Made by a program: the position numbers and the translations under genes | Notes under the pieces: generated by a model | What the model was told of the DNA's origin: nothing | The model's input: only the letters and a program-made list of their open reading frames with translations | Databases searched by the model: none | DNA from: Anaerostipes sp. | GTDB lineage: Bacteria > Bacillota > Clostridia > Lachnospirales > Lachnospiraceae | Direction: 5' to 3' | NCBI GenBank assembly: GCA_028704435.1 | Contig: JAQWFL010000021.1 | Coordinates: forward strand, 1 to 43,818 | DNA length: 43,818 nucleotides | Part shown: piece by piece, positions 16,602 to 35,341 of the stretch | Layout of the letters: every line of letters starts with the position of its first letter | Numbering within the stretch: the first letter of the stretch is position 1

Positions 16602-16867
16602 TTCCGTGCAACCGGGGAGTCAGCGGCACCCTGTATCTGCAATCCGCTATAGCAGAGGTCATGGTTTGTTTCGGGATTTGTCCTGTGAAGCTGCCCTTTA
16701 TAAGTGGCGTTGATGTTTGGGTCTTAAGCAATAGGAATCTGTGAACCGTGTCAGGTCGGGAACGAAGCAGCACTAAGCAGAATCTCCTATGTGCCTTAAG
16801 GGTGCCTGGGCTGAGTTAACTGTAGAGGTAACGTTCGTGGAATATTTCACAACACAAACCGCACGGA
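16602..16867 (+). ncRNA. ffs: Large bacterial signal recognition particle RNA
   Basis: The signature hairpin GTGTCAGGTCGGGAACGAAG lies in the domain that binds Ffh, with a GGAA tetraloop closed by a G-C pair. The 5' part reads CCGTGCAACCGGGGAGTCAG followed by TGTATCTGCAATCCGC, matching the Alu domain of the Bacillus-type (about 270 nt) SRP RNA. GGGTGCCTGGGCTGAG is the matching 3' segment. The ends pair as CCGTGC (16604-16609) with GCACGG (16861-16866). The RNA guides nascent membrane and secreted proteins to the translocon. Confidence 0.95.
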
Positions 16868-28796: not shown

Positions 28797-28908
28797 CTGA
28801 TTTATTATGCTTTTATATTACCACAAAATTAGCATTTTTTCAAGTCTTGTAACCATTGTGGAATGGGTATAAACTGTCCATAACATAAATGAAATGGGGG
28901 TTAGGTCC

Positions 28909-29364
28909 ATGAAAAAGTTTGATATGAGTCAGCTGATAAATCAGGGAACTACACTGGAAAAGATCGTTGAATGCAATCTATATACGAAAGGATTTGGACT
29001 TGTTTTAAGCAGAGAAGATGCAAAGGTACTTATGATGGATCGAACCAATAGTTTAAGGCAGCAGGGGAGGATTGAGTTTGGAGTAGGAATTCTGCCAAAG
29101 CTTATTTTTACATTTTGTGACTCTGGATATATTTATCAAGATAACTATGTGGACGTTATTGGAAGGCTTCAGGACATCTTTTATTTGTATAAAAATGAAG
29201 CCTTAGATGAATGGACAGACGATGAATTGCTGGAAGTGATGAAAAAGCAATTTGAAGAAGAGGCTAGAGGTGATTTGGATTTTCTTGAAGATACTTGTCT
29301 GGAAGCATATGCAAGAAAAATGAGAGAGTTAGTAGAGATCCCATTAGAAGAAAAGGAGAACTAA
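28909..29364 (+). CDS. DUF6323-like protein
   Basis: A 151-residue protein of unknown role, predicted mixed alpha/beta without membrane segments. Recognisable parts are ECNLYTKGFGLVLSREDAKVLMMDRTNSLRQQGRIEFG and the acidic C-terminal helix DDELLEVMKKQFEEEARGDLDFLEDTCLEAYARKMREL. The start at 28909 is preferred over 28894; a GGGGG/TTAGG run lies just upstream. The next gene begins immediately after the stop with AAGGAG inside this gene's end, and the pair appears conserved together in clostridia from recollection. Confidence 0.65.
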   Translation: MKKFDMSQLINQGTTLEKIVECNLYTKGFGLVLSREDAKVLMMDRTNSLRQQGRIEFGVGILPKLIFTFCDSGYIYQDNYVDVIGRLQDIFYLYKNEALDEWTDDELLEVMKKQFEEEARGDLDFLEDTCLEAYARKMRELVEIPLEEKEN

Positions 29365-29934
29365 ATGAATTATACCATGGAGGAATTACTCCCATTAGTT
29401 CAAATGTTGTCAGAAAAGTACACATCAAAACAGAGTACGTCAATTAGTGAGAATCTTGCAAAACAGCTGATGGGTGCAGTGATTTACTGTATGAATGAAT
29501 GTTGTAGTGATACTAAAGACAGGGAGATTGTAAAAGGAATGTCGGCCAAAGAAGCCTACCATATTGGATATGAAAAAGTCATTCAAAAAACAAAAAAGGC
29601 ATTAAAATTATATGAAAATATTATGGCCGAGTTTAAACATTATGGGAATCGTTGTTACTACGATACAATGGTAAAGGGAATGCCTCAATTTTTTCTTTAC
29701 TATGATGTGAAATTTTATCCACAGAATCAAATATTAACCTTAGACTATCCAACGCCAATACCAATTCATAAATTACAGGGAGTTGACGCCATCTATGAAT
29801 ACTTAAAATATATTTGGAAAGAGCAAAGAATATTAAGTCGTTATTCTGAGGAAGAAGTGCGAGATAAGTTGTTTCACTATTACACAGGATATGAAGATAT
29901 GATAGAAAATATCTATGAAATATTTAAAAGATAA
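29365..29934 (+). CDS. DUF6179-like protein
   Basis: A 189-residue protein. Its first part is helical (MEELLPLVQMLSEKYTSKQSTSISENLAKQLMGAVIYCM), followed by YHIGYEKVIQKTKKALKLYENIM and the conserved-looking YYDTMVKGMPQFFLYYDVKFYPQNQILTLDYP. The C-terminal helix ends in IYEIFKR. It is probably translated with the DUF6323-like gene, as the two abut. No catalytic motif is visible and no function can be given. Confidence 0.65.
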   Translation: MNYTMEELLPLVQMLSEKYTSKQSTSISENLAKQLMGAVIYCMNECCSDTKDREIVKGMSAKEAYHIGYEKVIQKTKKALKLYENIMAEFKHYGNRCYYDTMVKGMPQFFLYYDVKFYPQNQILTLDYPTPIPIHKLQGVDAIYEYLKYIWKEQRILSRYSEEEVRDKLFHYYTGYEDMIENIYEIFKR

Positions 29935-29976: not shown

Positions 29977-30005
29977 TTGACAACTATGAGAAGAAGGAGT
30001 ATTCT
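29977..30005 (+). promoter_or_regulatory. Promoter of the aromatic leader-DAHP synthase unit
   Basis: TTGACA (29977-29982), 17 nt, TATTCT (30000-30005). A 12-bp perfect palindrome, CACTTTAAAGTG (29944-29955), lies 21 bp upstream and may be a further control site. Confidence 0.7.
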
Positions 30006-30038
30006 AATTCACATAGATATTTGAAAGGAGAACGTCTT

Positions 30039-30125
30039 ATGTTCGCACAAAAGAATACAACAACATATTCTTTTTATTTCTGGGGTTACTATTTTAATCC
30101 TGGCTATTCGTGCTGCAAAGACTAA
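30039..30125 (+). CDS. Aromatic leader peptide (28 codons)
   Basis: A short ORF with its own ribosome site (GAAAGGAG, 30023-30030) that starts near the expected transcript start. Of 28 residues, 10 are Phe, Tyr or Trp; residues 10-19 read YSFYFWGYYF. It ends 35 nt before a terminator hairpin, ahead of a DAHP synthase gene. Such runs of codons for a pathway's end products are the mark of ribosome-mediated attenuation. Stalling when Phe, Tyr or Trp tRNAs are uncharged would let the synthase be transcribed. The peptide itself is unlikely to have another role. Confidence 0.85.
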   Translation: MFAQKNTTTYSFYFWGYYFNPGYSCCKD

Positions 30126-30127
30126 TC

Positions 30128-30196
30128 CTATGAAGAGATAACAAGAAGTTTGAAGTCATAGACCTGTGTCCTTGTAGTAAGGGGCATAGGTCTTTT
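30128..30196 (+). promoter_or_regulatory. Transcription attenuator (antiterminator/terminator) before DAHP synthase
   Basis: The terminator pairs AGACCTGTGTCC... (from 30160) with GGGGCATAGGTCT (to 30193) and ends in TTTT. CTATGA (30128-30133), just after the leader stop codon, can instead pair with TCATAG (30156-30161), which overlaps the terminator's 5' foot. A ribosome that reaches the leader stop would cover 30128-30138 and allow termination; one stalled on the aromatic codons would leave it free for antitermination. The antiterminator helix is short (6 bp), so this part is inferred. Confidence 0.7.
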
Positions 30197-30226
30197 CAGT
30201 TTATGCAAAGAGAAAGGAAATAACAC

Positions 30227-31234
30227 ATGATTATTATTTTAAAGCAGAACGCAAAGGAAGAACAAGTAAGAGAACTAAAAGAATCTATGAGAAATCAAGG
30301 ATTTGATATTCATGAATCAACCGGAGCCAATACCAATTTATTTGGTTTGATTGGTGATACATCAATTATTGACGAAGACCTTGTTATGGCCAATGATGCT
30401 GTAGAGGCAGTACGCAGAATTCAGGAACCATACAAGAAAGCCAATCGCCAATTTCATCCAACAGATAGTGTTGTAGATGTAAATGGGGTAAAGATTGGTG
30501 GCGGACATTTTCAGGTGATGGCAGGACCTTGTTCCATTGAGACAAAGGAACAGATGACAAGTGTAGCAAACAGTGTCAAAGATGCAGGAGCAGGATTCCT
30601 CCGTGGAGGTGCATTTAAGCCTAGAACATCACCTTACGCATTTCAGGGACTTCATGACGAAGGATTGAAGCTATTATTAGAAGCAAAAAAAGCAACAGGA
30701 CTTCCAGTGGTAACAGAAATTATGGATCCAAGAGATCTGCCATTGTTTGATAATGTTGATTTAATTCAAGTGGGAGCAAGAAATATGCAGAACTTTGAAT
30801 TGTTAAAGGAATTAGGAAAAACCAACAAACCAGTTTTATTAAAAAGAGGGTTGGCTGCGACTATGCAAGAATGGTTAATGAGTGCAGAGTACATTATGGC
30901 AGGTGGAAATGAGGATGTAATTCTTTGCGAACGAGGAATTCGTACATATGAGACAGCTGTTCGTAATACACTAGATTTATCAGCAATTCCAGTGATCAAA
31001 AAGAAGTCTCACCTACCAGTTATTGTAGATCCATCTCATGCAACAGGTGTACGTGATTTAGTTGAACCAATGGCCCTTGCGGCAATTGCAGCAGGTGCAG
31101 ATGGATTAATGGTAGAAGTACATAACAATCCAGCAAAAGCATTATGTGATGGACCACAGTCATTGACACCAGATGCATTTAGTGATTTAATGAAAAAAGT
31201 GAACAAAACCAGAACGTTTTTTGAAACATTATAG
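30227..31234 (+). CDS. aroF: 3-deoxy-7-phosphoheptulonate (DAHP) synthase, type I-beta
   Basis: A 335-residue enzyme that condenses phosphoenolpyruvate and erythrose 4-phosphate, the entry step of the shikimate pathway. Residues 1-70 match the ferredoxin-like regulatory domain of Thermotoga-type enzymes, known for Tyr/Phe feedback. Catalytic-barrel motifs are MAGPCSIET, RGGAFKPRTSPYAFQG, ILCERGIRTYE and VDPSHATG. The AAAGGAA site supports the start at 30227. It stands alone, with no other aromatic-pathway gene nearby, and is controlled by the upstream attenuator. Confidence 0.94.
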   Translation: MIIILKQNAKEEQVRELKESMRNQGFDIHESTGANTNLFGLIGDTSIIDEDLVMANDAVEAVRRIQEPYKKANRQFHPTDSVVDVNGVKIGGGHFQVMAGPCSIETKEQMTSVANSVKDAGAGFLRGGAFKPRTSPYAFQGLHDEGLKLLLEAKKATGLPVVTEIMDPRDLPLFDNVDLIQVGARNMQNFELLKELGKTNKPVLLKRGLAATMQEWLMSAEYIMAGGNEDVILCERGIRTYETAVRNTLDLSAIPVIKKKSHLPVIVDPSHATGVRDLVEPMALAAIAAGADGLMVEVHNNPAKALCDGPQSLTPDAFSDLMKKVNKTRTFFETL

Positions 31235-31246
31235 TAGGAGTTAAGG

Positions 31247-31804
31247 ATGAAAGTGATTGTTGGACTTGGGAATCCAGGAAAGAAGTATGAGAATACAAGA
31301 CATAATATTGGATTTACAGCTTTGGATTATATTGGGGAAAAGTCAGGAATTGATATTAGTACCAAAAAGCATAAAGCACTGATAGGAAGTGGTTATATAG
31401 AGGGGCAGAAGGTTCTTCTTGTAAAGCCGCAGACATTTATGAATCTCAGTGGAGAAAGTTTACGAAGTGTTATGGATTTTTATAAGTTGGAACCAGAAGA
31501 TTTCATTGTGATTTTCGACGATATTTCACTTGATGTTGGAAAGATAAGAATTAGAAGAAAGGGAAGTGCGGGGGGACACAATGGGATTAAGAGTATTATT
31601 TCCCATTTGGGAAGCCAGAATTTTCCTCGTCTAAAGATTGGTGTCGGAGAAAAACCAAAGGGATATGATTTAGCTGATTATGTGCTGGGTCATTTTTCAA
31701 AGGGAGAACATGAGATTTACGATGATTTGTATTCTGATATTTATGACGGAGTAAAGCTCATTGTATTAGATCACATGACAGAAGCAATGAATCAATATAA
31801 CTAA
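31247..31804 (+). CDS. pth: Peptidyl-tRNA hydrolase
   Basis: A 185-residue Pth that recycles peptidyl-tRNA released from ribosomes. Family motifs are VGLGNPGKKYENTRHNIGF (catalytic His in RHN), VKPQTFMNLSGES and GSAGGHNGIKSI. Length is normal. GGAG lies upstream, and the gene is 12 nt after aroF. Mfd follows 15 nt downstream, the usual pth-mfd order of Firmicutes. Confidence 0.96.
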   Translation: MKVIVGLGNPGKKYENTRHNIGFTALDYIGEKSGIDISTKKHKALIGSGYIEGQKVLLVKPQTFMNLSGESLRSVMDFYKLEPEDFIVIFDDISLDVGKIRIRRKGSAGGHNGIKSIISHLGSQNFPRLKIGVGEKPKGYDLADYVLGHFSKGEHEIYDDLYSDIYDGVKLIVLDHMTEAMNQYN

Positions 31805-31819: not shown

Positions 31820-34800
31820 TTGTTAGAACAAATTTTAAAAACCAATGACCAATGGATACAGATAAAAACAGACCTTGAGGCAAATCAAGGTCCTGTTTGC
31901 GTGTCGGGAATAACGGATTCTGCGAAAGCACATATCACGTCAGCCATTGGACAAAAGAAAAGAGGCAATTATAAAATTGTCATAACTTCAGATGAGAACA
32001 AAGCAAAAGAGTGGGTGGATCAATATCGTTTTTTTGGAAATGACTGCATCTATTTTCCGGCAAAGGATCCTTTATTTTATACAGCAGATGTCCATGGAAA
32101 TGCAATTGCCAAGGAAAGAATGAGGGGAATTGAACGAATTATTAAAGGGACTGGCGGCGTTTTTGTATTGACTGTTGATGCTTTAATGGATCGAGTAGTT
32201 CCGCTAAAAGAAATAAAAAAGCAAAAACAAGTATATAAAGTTGGAATGCAAATTGTGGAGAGCGAGATTCCAAGAACGTTAGTATCTATTGGATATGAAA
32301 AAGTTCCATTTGTAGAAGCTCAAGGAGAATTTGCAATTCGAGGAGGTATTATTGATGTTTATCCATTTACGGGAGACTGTCCTTACCGAATGGAATTATG
32401 GGGTGACGACATTGATTCCATCCGAAGTTTTGATGTAGAAAGTCAAAGGTCCATTGAAAATATAGATACACTTTCTATTTATCCTGCAACGGAAGTAGTC
32501 TTAGATGATGAAATTATTGCCCTTGGACTTAGGAATATCACAACAGAATATGAAAAGGTATATTCTCATTTTAAAGAAGGGTTTCAAGGCGAGCAGCAAA
32601 AACGAATTCGAAAAGAGTATGAGAGGGTACAGGAAGAATTAAAGGAACTGCAAATGCTCATTGGAGTAGAAGGTTATCTGCCATTTTTTTATGAGAATAC
32701 CGTTTCTTTTCTTGATTATTTTCCTAAAAATACCATGATTATATGGGATGAACCAAATCACGTAAAAGAGCGAGGAGAAGGATTTTTTCTCGAATTTAAA
32801 GAAAGTATGAAAAGCCGGTTGGAAAGTGGTTATATTCTGCCAAGTCAGATGAATACTGTTGTTTCATTTGATGAAGTCGCGGGGCAGCTTAAAAAGAAAC
32901 AAAATATATTTTTAAGTACATTATCATCTCAGGTTGATTTTATGCCAGTGTGGATGACTCATTATTTTGAGACAAAATCAATTCAGTCATACAACAATAG
33001 CTTTGAACAGCTGGTAAAGGATTTAAGAAGATATCAGAAAAATCAGTATAAAATTGTAGTAGTTTCCCCGTCGGTGACAAGAGCAAAGCGGCTGGCGCAG
33101 GATATGAGGGAACATGAATTAGTTGTCACCTATGAAAAAGATATAAAAGGTGAGGTACAATCTGGTCAGATTATTTTAACTCCAGGTAAATTAAAAAGTG
33201 GAATTGAGTATCCTCAGAATAAATGGGTGTTAATCTCAGAAAGTGATATTTTTAAAGGTAAGAAAAAGGCAAAGAGGAAAAAGCAAGGGGAAAAGTTTCA
33301 GGGAGAAAAGATAAAGAACTTTGCTGATATTTCCATTGGAGACTATGTGGTTCATGAAAAACATGGGGTTGGAATTTATCGTGGAATTGAAAAAATTACG
33401 GTAGACCATGTTGAAAAAGATTATATTAGTATTGAGTATAATGGTGGGGATAAATTATTTATCCTGGCATCTGCCCTGGATCAGATTTCAAAATATGCCA
33501 GTGCAAAAGCAAAAAAACCAAGATTGAATAAGCTTGGGGGAACAGAATGGAAAAAGACTACAAAACGTGTTCAGGGGCAGGTAAAGGAGATTGCAAAGGA
33601 GTTAGTTGAACTATATGCAATCCGCCAATCCAAAGAAGGCTATGTATATGACAAGGACACAGTATGGCAAAAGGAATTTGAAGAATTGTTTCCATATGAT
33701 GAAACCACAGACCAGTTGGCAGCCATTGAAGATACAAAGAGAGATATGGAAAGTACTAAGATTATGGATCGACTTATATGTGGAGATGTTGGATATGGAA
33801 AAACCGAAGTTGCCATTCGAGCAGCATTTAAGACAGTTAGCAACGGAAAACAGGTGGCATATCTGGTTCCTACAACGATTTTAGCCCAGCAGCATTATAA
33901 TACATTTGTAGAACGTTTTAAGAATTATCCAATGACAGTTCGTGTAATGTCCAGGTTCTGCACTGCAAAAGAGCAAAGAGAAACTATTGAAGGGCTAAAA
34001 AAGGGAATGGTGGATGTTGTCATTGGAACACACCGACTGCTTTCCAAAGATATGATGTACAAAGATCTTGGACTTTTGATTATTGATGAAGAACAAAGAT
34101 TTGGAGTGAGTCATAAAGAGAAAATTAAATCTTTGAAAAAGGATATAGATGTACTTTCCTTGTCAGCAACGCCGATACCAAGAACTCTCCATATGAGTTT
34201 GATTGGTATTAGAGATATGAGCTTATTAGAAGAACCGCCTCATGACCGAAGGGCGATTCAAACCTATGTAATGGAATACAACGATGAACTTGTAAAGGAA
34301 GCCATTCATAGAGAAATGACTCGTGGAGGTCAGATTTATTATGTATATAACCGAGTCAATAATATTGCGGAAATTACAAGTAACATTCAAAAGCTAGTGC
34401 CAAATGCAAAAGTGGCGTTTGCACATGGACAGATGAGAGAACATGAACTAGAAAAGATTATGATGGAGTTTATGAATCGAGAGATTGATGTACTAGTTTC
34501 TACTACAATTATTGAGACGGGACTTGATATCCCAAACGTAAATACAATGATTATTCATGACGCCAATCAACTTGGTCTTTCTCAGCTATATCAATTGAGA
34601 GGCCGAGTAGGTCGGTCCAATCGAAATGCGTTTGCATTTTTAATGTACAAGCGAGATACTTTATTAAAGGAAACTGCGGAAAAGAGACTTCAGGCTATTC
34701 GAGAATTTACAGACCTTGGTTCTGGATATAAGATTGCTATGCGAGATCTTGAGATTCGTGGAGCAGGGAATCTTTTAGGCCAAGCACAGTCAGGACACAT

Positions 34801-35341
34801 GGAAGCTGTAGGATATGACATGTATTGTAAAATGTTAAATGATGCAGTGCTTCGTCTTAAAGGGGAAATTCAGGAAGAGGAAGATTATGAGACAACATTG
34901 GATTTAGATGTAGATGCCTTTATTCCAAATACCTATGTAAAAAATGAATATCAAAAACTGGAATTTTACAAGAGGATTTCTTCCATCGAGACAGAGGATG
35001 AGGTGGAGGATATGACAGATGAGATGGTGGACCGATTTGGAGATATTCCAAGAGCGGTTGTAAATCTTCTTCATATTGCATTGCTGAAATCAAAAGCGCA
35101 TAAAGCATATATGACAGACGTAAAGCAAAAAGGTGAGAAAGTTTATTTTGAAATGTATCCAAAAGCAAATGTAGATGTAGATGGGATTGGAGATGTATTG
35201 GCAAAGTTCAAAGGGAAGCTTTTTATACAGCCAGGAGATGTACCAACATTTATTCTTGAACTAAATCAAATACCCAAGAGAAAATGGATTCGCAAAATTG
35301 AAGATTGTGTGAACTCGTTAGATTCGTTGATTATCAGATAG
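31820..35341 (+). CDS. mfd: Transcription-repair coupling factor
   Basis: A 1173-residue Mfd that frees stalled RNA polymerase and recruits the UvrABC repair system. Domain order is a UvrB-like N-terminal part (FYTADVHGNAIAKERMRGI; IRGGIIDVYP), a CarD-like polymerase-interaction domain around 500-570 (IGDYVVHEKHGVGIY), RecG-like motor motifs (GDVGYGKTEVAIRAA near 655, DEEQRFGV, SATPIPRTL, QLRGRVGRS) and the C-terminal TRCF domain. The start is a TTG at 31820, since the family alignment begins LEQIL and a GAAGGTG site precedes it. Confidence 0.97.
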   Translation: MLEQILKTNDQWIQIKTDLEANQGPVCVSGITDSAKAHITSAIGQKKRGNYKIVITSDENKAKEWVDQYRFFGNDCIYFPAKDPLFYTADVHGNAIAKERMRGIERIIKGTGGVFVLTVDALMDRVVPLKEIKKQKQVYKVGMQIVESEIPRTLVSIGYEKVPFVEAQGEFAIRGGIIDVYPFTGDCPYRMELWGDDIDSIRSFDVESQRSIENIDTLSIYPATEVVLDDEIIALGLRNITTEYEKVYSHFKEGFQGEQQKRIRKEYERVQEELKELQMLIGVEGYLPFFYENTVSFLDYFPKNTMIIWDEPNHVKERGEGFFLEFKESMKSRLESGYILPSQMNTVVSFDEVAGQLKKKQNIFLSTLSSQVDFMPVWMTHYFETKSIQSYNNSFEQLVKDLRRYQKNQYKIVVVSPSVTRAKRLAQDMREHELVVTYEKDIKGEVQSGQIILTPGKLKSGIEYPQNKWVLISESDIFKGKKKAKRKKQGEKFQGEKIKNFADISIGDYVVHEKHGVGIYRGIEKITVDHVEKDYISIEYNGGDKLFILASALDQISKYASAKAKKPRLNKLGGTEWKKTTKRVQGQVKEIAKELVELYAIRQSKEGYVYDKDTVWQKEFEELFPYDETTDQLAAIEDTKRDMESTKIMDRLICGDVGYGKTEVAIRAAFKTVSNGKQVAYLVPTTILAQQHYNTFVERFKNYPMTVRVMSRFCTAKEQRETIEGLKKGMVDVVIGTHRLLSKDMMYKDLGLLIIDEEQRFGVSHKEKIKSLKKDIDVLSLSATPIPRTLHMSLIGIRDMSLLEEPPHDRRAIQTYVMEYNDELVKEAIHREMTRGGQIYYVYNRVNNIAEITSNIQKLVPNAKVAFAHGQMREHELEKIMMEFMNREIDVLVSTTIIETGLDIPNVNTMIIHDANQLGLSQLYQLRGRVGRSNRNAFAFLMYKRDTLLKETAEKRLQAIREFTDLGSGYKIAMRDLEIRGAGNLLGQAQSGHMEAVGYDMYCKMLNDAVLRLKGEIQEEEDYETTLDLDVDAFIPNTYVKNEYQKLEFYKRISSIETEDEVEDMTDEMVDRFGDIPRAVVNLLHIALLKSKAHKAYMTDVKQKGEKVYFEMYPKANVDVDGIGDVLAKFKGKLFIQPGDVPTFILELNQIPKRKWIRKIEDCVNSLDSLIIR

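Follow-up and report, generated by a model that had tools for sequence, protein, structure and literature searches.

What controls aroF, the DAHP synthase gene at the entry to aromatic amino acid synthesis, in a member of the genus Anaerostipes? T-boxes are the devices usually named for clostridia. In a 43,818-nucleotide stretch of Anaerostipes sp. DNA (contig JAQWFL010000021.1 of assembly GCA_028704435.1, hereafter the window, from a source genome of 2.88 Mb) this gene is preceded by a short ORF crowded with aromatic codons, and the initial annotation had proposed leader-peptide attenuation. The proposal is supported by a covarying antiterminator and terminator, by a model of ribosome position and by recurrence in relatives. 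From the ORF, its codon run, the terminator, the covarying antiterminator and their recurrence, all of them features of the sequence, we infer that the aroF leader is a ribosome-mediated transcription attenuator which reads the charging of tRNA-Phe and tRNA-Tyr (probability about 0.9). The features of the locus are as follows.

29977-30005, + strand: sigma-70-type promoter TTGACA-N17-TATTCT, 10 of 12 consensus matches
30024-30030, + strand: Shine-Dalgarno sequence AAAGGAG of the leader ORF, read from the sequence
30034-30048, + strand: putative protector segment, pairing in MFE folds with 30110-30122 when the leader is untranslated
30039-30125, + strand: leader peptide ORF of 28 codons, MFAQKNTTTYSFYFWGYYFNPGYSCCKD, with its own Shine-Dalgarno sequence
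30066-30095, + strand: control codons, residues 10-19, the aromatic run YSFYFWGYYF
30080-30103, + strand: hairpin 1 (30080-30086 with 30097-30103) inside the control region, a possible pause hairpin
30111-30122, + strand: antiterminator 5' strand, main part (codons CCKD), from alignment, covariation and folding
30128-30133, + strand: antiterminator 5' strand, loop-proximal part (the stem of the initial annotation), from the covariation test and folding
30156-30161, + strand: antiterminator 3' strand, loop-proximal part, from the covariation test and folding
30160-30196, + strand: intrinsic terminator, hairpin 30160-30193 (14 pairs) with a U run to 30196, from hairpin search, covariation and folding
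30168-30179, + strand: antiterminator 3' strand, main part, equal to the upper 5' arm and loop bases of the terminator, from alignment, covariation and folding
30227-31234, + strand: aroF, DAHP synthase with an N-terminal ferredoxin-like domain (PF00793, PF18152, NF006421, TIGR01361)

On re-reading the sequence, the counts and coordinates of the 28-codon ORF with its own Shine-Dalgarno sequence and 10 aromatic codons (8 of them within residues 10-19) were found to be correct, and the promoter and the terminator hairpin ahead of aroF both lie where they had been placed. A short ORF with its own ribosome site upstream of a biosynthetic gene and an intrinsic terminator between the two are both marks of an attenuator. 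AroF matches PF00793 and the ferredoxin-like domain PF18152 as well as the DAHP synthase models NF006421 and TIGR01361; no match to the leader peptide was found among the NCBIfam models. A TTGACA-N17-TATNNT promoter was observed by eye in the alignment of 8 of the 11 genus members and is not clear in L083, L085 and L086.

Directly after aroF follow pth (31247-31804) and mfd (31820-35341), named from their translations, with 12 nt between aroF and pth. All 11 genus members have pth and the start of mfd behind aroF, an arrangement seen in none of the other loci among the first 110 except L001, which is a copy of L088. Pth frees peptidyl-tRNA, and it is only a thought that stalled leader ribosomes may shed peptidyl-tRNA for Pth and so connect this gene with the leader. 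Upstream lie two adjacent genes, DUF6323 and DUF6179 (28894-29934). Elsewhere, a group II intron match (RF00029, 48-123) was observed at the start of the window and a bacterial large SRP RNA (RF01854) at 16604-16866.

The aromatic run was found to be well above chance. The best ORF with an ATG start and a Shine-Dalgarno sequence in the 330 nt upstream of aroF in the window has 8 aromatic codons in 12, a value reached in 0 of 5000 dinucleotide shuffles of the same 330 nt, where the maximum was 6. Among the first 110 loci, 13 of which were reoriented before this test, 66 have at least 6 aromatic codons in 12, compared with 0.32% of 4400 shuffles and none of the 110 reverse strands. A run of end-product codons that is conserved and exceeds chance, as in an attenuator, was seen for Phe and Tyr, not for Trp (see below).

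The terminator shares bases with a second structure, an antiterminator that begins just past the control codons. The main pairs in the window are 30111-30118 with 30172-30179 and 30120-30122 with 30168-30170, and the whole antiterminator, folded before the 3' arm of the terminator is made, has 17 pairs and -17.9 kcal/mol; the terminator is more stable at -22.7 kcal/mol. The leader RNA as a whole folds better than 200 of 200 shuffles (z -3.47). Our alignment of 11 species of the genus shows 94.1% of antiterminator cells paired and 5 pairs with two-sided changes, and 0 of 500 shuffles were as high. Slid versions of the antiterminator gave 26.8 to 48.5%, a comparison that favours the consensus antiterminator as it was read from the same sequences. 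For the terminator the values are 94.8% of cells, 7 pairs with two-sided changes and 6 of 500 shuffles as high. Hairpin 1 is paired in 11 of 11 species (100% of cells), with one two-sided-change pair that is equalled by 333 of 500 shuffles. The count of further pair types was not above shuffles for any of these three structures or for the stem of the initial annotation. Three of the 14 consensus antiterminator pairs are absent in the window, where the pairing is shifted by one base.

In the genus alignment, substitutions in the leader codons go hand in hand with substitutions in the terminator loop, for example TGCTGCAA with TTGCAGCA, TGTTGCAA with TTGCAACA, GTTGTAA with TTACAAC and CTACAA with TTGTAG, and in some genus peptides these joint changes turn Cys-Cys into Arg-Tyr. 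This joint change despite the altered peptide is, as sequence evidence, the strongest single argument. Within the genus the antiterminator would exclude the terminator on covariation and folding, and outside it the support comes from energy.

The pairing of 30128-30133 with 30156-30161, which the initial annotation had expected to break the terminator, is exact as a pairing. Its overlap with the terminator is 30160-30161 only, and it would therefore not break the terminator alone; the whole-leader MFE fold holds both. Taken as the whole antiterminator this stem was rejected, having that two-base overlap and 60.6% of cells paired compared with 62.1% for its slid version (11 species). By alignment it is the weakly conserved stretch of the antiterminator nearer the loop; 30111-30122 with 30168-30179 makes up the main part. 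What had been expected of relatives, co-varying stems and aromatic runs upstream of aroF, was observed in that the stems covary and Phe/Tyr runs recur.

These elements suggest the following course of events. RNA polymerase would start near 30011, followed by a ribosome that translates the 28-codon ORF. Under a shortage of Phe or Tyr this ribosome would stall at codons 10-19 with its front edge before 30111, so that 30111-30133 could pair with 30156-30179 as the 17-bp antiterminator. This would take the terminator 5' arm and loop before the 3' arm is made and allow read-through into aroF. When Phe and Tyr are plentiful, the ribosome would reach the stop codon and cover the RNA to about 30135; the antiterminator would be blocked, and the terminator hairpin 30160-30193 would stop transcription. 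Termination is also expected when the leader is not translated, because the putative protector upstream would then pair with 30110-30122. The protector pairing appears in MFE folds, and the energy of sequestration in the window is -6.0 kcal/mol untranslated compared with -13.6 kcal/mol stalled.

Our model of the nascent RNA assumes that the ribosome covers 13 nt, counted from the first base of its A-site codon. The modelled antiterminator probability was 0.96 for a ribosome at any of codons 10-20, and it fell to 0.85 at codon 21, 0.48 at codon 22 and 0.00 from codon 23 on; a stall at Tyr23 (30105) would block the antiterminator in this model. The equilibrium fold of the complete window RNA favoured the terminator at every ribosome position (P 0.92-0.99), and therefore the choice would need co-transcriptional folding, as in known attenuators.

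The same behaviour is predicted across relatives. The energy test took in 85 of the 87 loci that pass the leader screen described below (L001 included) and 42 of 47 in a second set. In the 85 loci a ribosome placed at the first aromatic codon gave a median sequestration of the terminator arm of -10.2 kcal/mol, and one at the stop -3.2; the medians were -4.3 for RNA free of ribosomes and -5.3 when the linker was shuffled. The corresponding medians in the 42 loci were -9.3, -2.7, -3.6 and -4.8 kcal/mol. Linker shuffles were beaten at p 0.05 by 51 of 85 loci (34 do not) and by 26 of 42 (16 do not), and at least 3 kcal/mol of sequestration is lost at the stop in 69 of 85 loci (16 lose less) and 32 of 42 (10 lose less). 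Sequestration is weaker without a ribosome, and untranslated leaders are therefore predicted to terminate. In silico, then, a ribosome at the control codons frees the antiterminator and one at the stop blocks it. Two earlier measures were set aside. Arm occupancy, computed for 83 rows, could not tell strong pairing from weak (in the window 0.54 stalled, 0.44 at the stop), and the free-energy measure took its place; that measure also superseded a duplex screen (52 of 85 loci at p 0.05).

How widely does the leader recur? To pass our screen a locus had to show 5 or more aromatic codons within 12, under a start and Shine-Dalgarno rule less strict than in the chance test, together with a hairpin at least as stable as -8 kcal/mol that is followed by a T-rich tail and may lie at any point downstream of the leader start; a few loci, L077, L105, L188 and L218, have this hairpin inside the ORF. 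The first loci comprised the 80 top hits from scanning named genomes and the 30 highest-scoring ones out of 98 related genomes (50 with any AroF match at 1e-30), picked by AroF closeness and not at random. Without L001, the duplicate of L088, an aromatic leader with a terminator was found at 86 of 109 close aroF loci, and 23 fail the screen. As a control, 318 other ORFs with 180 codons or more were taken from the named loci and put through the same screen, and 4 passed.

A class sample drew on 293 genomes (126 with a match at 1e-125) and comprised 25 of 28 newly listed loci together with 40 fetched ones; L132, L133 and L157 were dropped as no start was found, and L166 and L227 are short and were counted as failing. 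Leader and terminator were observed at 47 of these 65 aroF loci, and 18 fail. Five of the passing ORFs look like chance (L139, L155, L158, L165 and L196); without them the count is 42 of 65, spanning 23 families by hand-counted labels. The pairs L134/L017, L140/L022 and L146/L045 look like the same loci, and the class sample is therefore not fully independent of the first. Outside the class but within the phylum, 48 loci were screened; 14 of them pass and 34 fail. The 14 comprise 13 of the 28 loci that score best and a single one of the 20 that are more distant. L216 and L242 among the 14 look like chance ORFs, and L205, which belongs to the same class as the window, was left out. Loci that carry names such as Planctomycetia, Treponema or Coriobacteriales may come from clostridial contigs that were misbinned.

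Searched with R1, an RNA model of the genus leader, each of the 11 genus genomes gave a single strong match, located at aroF, and no second strong copy (next best E 0.011); the strong genus matches arise by construction because R1 was built from 10 of the 11 species. As a family-wide model R1 was too narrow and was rejected, with matches in 7 of 200 genomes, strong only in the window. Further afield, Veillonella parvula SKV38 has a candidate leader KQYFYWFFIQRTGKELF and a terminator before aroF (L060, 2780-2943), for which the antiterminator energy test gives no support. Paired aroF genes were also noticed, side by side and divergent in G376 (C1, 928627-931167) and G309 (C1, 2072676-2075213), and in tandem in G468 (C27, 69622-71640).

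Which amino acids would be sensed? The initial annotation had suggested one device for Phe, Tyr and Trp, and the window does have a Trp codon (TGG, 30081-30083) within the control run. The 12-codon control runs of the 86 leaders hold 322 Tyr, 311 Phe and 19 Trp codons. Of these 86, 82 combine Phe with Tyr and 17 contain all three residues, whereas Trp is present in 18 and missing from 68. At the genus Trp site, Trp was observed in 5 of 11 species and Gln or Arg in 6; this codon sits in the 5' arm of hairpin 1, and trpE of the same genome has its own upstream T-box. Phe and Tyr codons are conserved and Trp is not, so that reading of all three end products is doubtful, and we consider it unlikely for the window leader too. 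The conserved signal, as judged from the codons, is Phe plus Tyr.

The ORF might instead encode a working small protein rich in aromatic residues, or an arrest peptide that senses free amino acid in the ribosome tunnel and does not gauge charged tRNA. Non-aromatic positions do recur, GYYF..G..CC in several Lachnospiraceae and GKAYLG in others, and Cys-Cys after the aromatic run is found upstream of aroF in L002, L003 and L094. The Cys-Cys bases in these three loci pair with CAGCAG-like bases in the terminator loop, and the recurrent Cys-Cys of the genus is part of the antiterminator strand and changes with it at the base level. Furthermore, the length, order and number of aromatic codons differ among loci, and stalling by free amino acid would be expected to switch a biosynthetic gene off and not on. 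A small protein or an arrest peptide is very unlikely to explain the leader.

T-boxes respond to uncharged tRNA by antitermination, each binding one tRNA directly. The source genome has 8 T-box matches (6 above the cut-off), located before leuA, trpE, a TrpX-like transporter gene and pheS (NCBIfam names, the TrpX score being below its cut-off) and before two thrS genes, gatC and ileS (read from translations). At the window leader no Rfam family was found at the gathering threshold, and relaxing the limit to E 10 gave just two matches, each scoring far under its cut-off; the T-box model RF00230 gave no match there, and a T-box was accordingly rejected as a candidate for this leader. The Rfam amino acid leader families, such as the His leader RF00514, matched neither the window leader nor those of 20 relatives. 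In loci failing the leader screen, a T-box was found upstream of aroF in 7 of 47 scanned (2 of 20, 5 of 20 and 0 of 7), namely L103, L107, L222, L225, L233, L237 and L241, all without a leader, and 40 of the 47 have neither device. No T-box was observed at 33 loci passing the screen (20 and 13, the doubtful L139 being among the 13). Some leaderless aroF genes thus have a T-box and the scanned leader loci have none, and so either device can take the place of the other. In two of the relatives without a peptide leader the T-box lies directly upstream of aroF at 2582-2829 (L103) and 1160-1389 (L107); the specifier of the latter looks by eye like Phe TTC, and the former reads TGGAACC, which presumably does not fit Phe or Tyr tRNA. 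With T-boxes present in this genome and at aroF in seven leaderless relatives, control by a T-box or another metabolite- or tRNA-binding RNA, the small ORF being incidental, might be considered; given the lack of Rfam families at the window leader and of T-boxes at the 33 loci, we regard it as highly improbable. A real leader with a constitutive terminator, lowering aroF without sensing, would fit the greater stability of the terminator noted above and has hardly any chance of being right against antiterminator pairs that covary and begin just past the control codons.

The E. coli trp, pheA and his operons are the classical ribosome-mediated attenuators, with ilvGMEDA as a multi-amino-acid case. 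Like trp, pheA and his, the aroF leader combines a short ORF, a run of control codons and mutually exclusive antiterminator and terminator, and like ilvGMEDA it would read several end products with one leader. Unlike the E. coli attenuators, it precedes a DAHP synthase gene of the common pathway in Bacillota and not Proteobacteria, mixes Phe and Tyr codons and matches no Rfam family. T-box leaders (RF00230) share antitermination and the position at aroF in seven relatives, and differ in needing no ORF.

Among the closest published predictions is uORFC-13-1 upstream of aroF in Acholeplasma. The accessible part of PMC8632094 describes a uORF with a U stretch coding for at least one Phe, just before an intrinsic terminator, with attenuation proposed, in 24 examples from Acholeplasma and environmental sequences only. 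The gene is the same as in the clostridial case, and the layout of a uORF ahead of a terminator is similar; no Tyr codons are described in that part. Leader-peptide attenuation has been predicted in Bacillota for His, at hisZ/hisS in bacilli (PMC2965389, in the part available) and at his genes of the B. cereus group, Peptostreptococcaceae and Erysipelotrichales (PMC9413887, likewise); unlike the aroF leader, these have His codons, concern his genes and occur in few small groups. Attenuators of the Merino database before tyrA operons, as cited in the available text of PMC1173090, are mechanical predictions that include operons with a type I-beta DAHP synthase gene; they were selected by tyrA, and in that text the term 'leader peptide' is absent and no Clostridium row was found. 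The portions of PMC4833913 and PMC4448216 that were accessible contain nothing on an aromatic aroF leader, and those of the latter propose other riboswitches for aromatic amino acids. In the accessible open-access literature, supplements aside, an aromatic aroF leader is unreported in Clostridia; a 2010 attenuation study cited in PMC4833913 could hold a related case. The mechanism is thus classical, and the instance appears widespread in the class, well supported by sequence and, as far as searched, seemingly undescribed. The layout looks like a common but little-described switch in clostridia.

It is conceivable, with the odds somewhat against it, that in Bacillota this type of DAHP synthase was ancestrally controlled by a Phe and Tyr leader attenuator, which would extend beyond Clostridia to other classes and perhaps to Acholeplasma. 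T-boxes and leaders would since have replaced each other at aroF, and leaders would persist where one gene sums several end products. A T-box reads one tRNA, and a leader can add several. The presence of T-boxes at trpE and pheS in the same genome suggests single-tRNA sensors for the branches and a multi-codon leader for the shared first step. Aromatic leaders of this kind may be missed in annotation or taken for small proteins. If the proposed attenuation is true, the entry to aromatic synthesis in many clostridia would be set by the translating ribosome and not by T-boxes.
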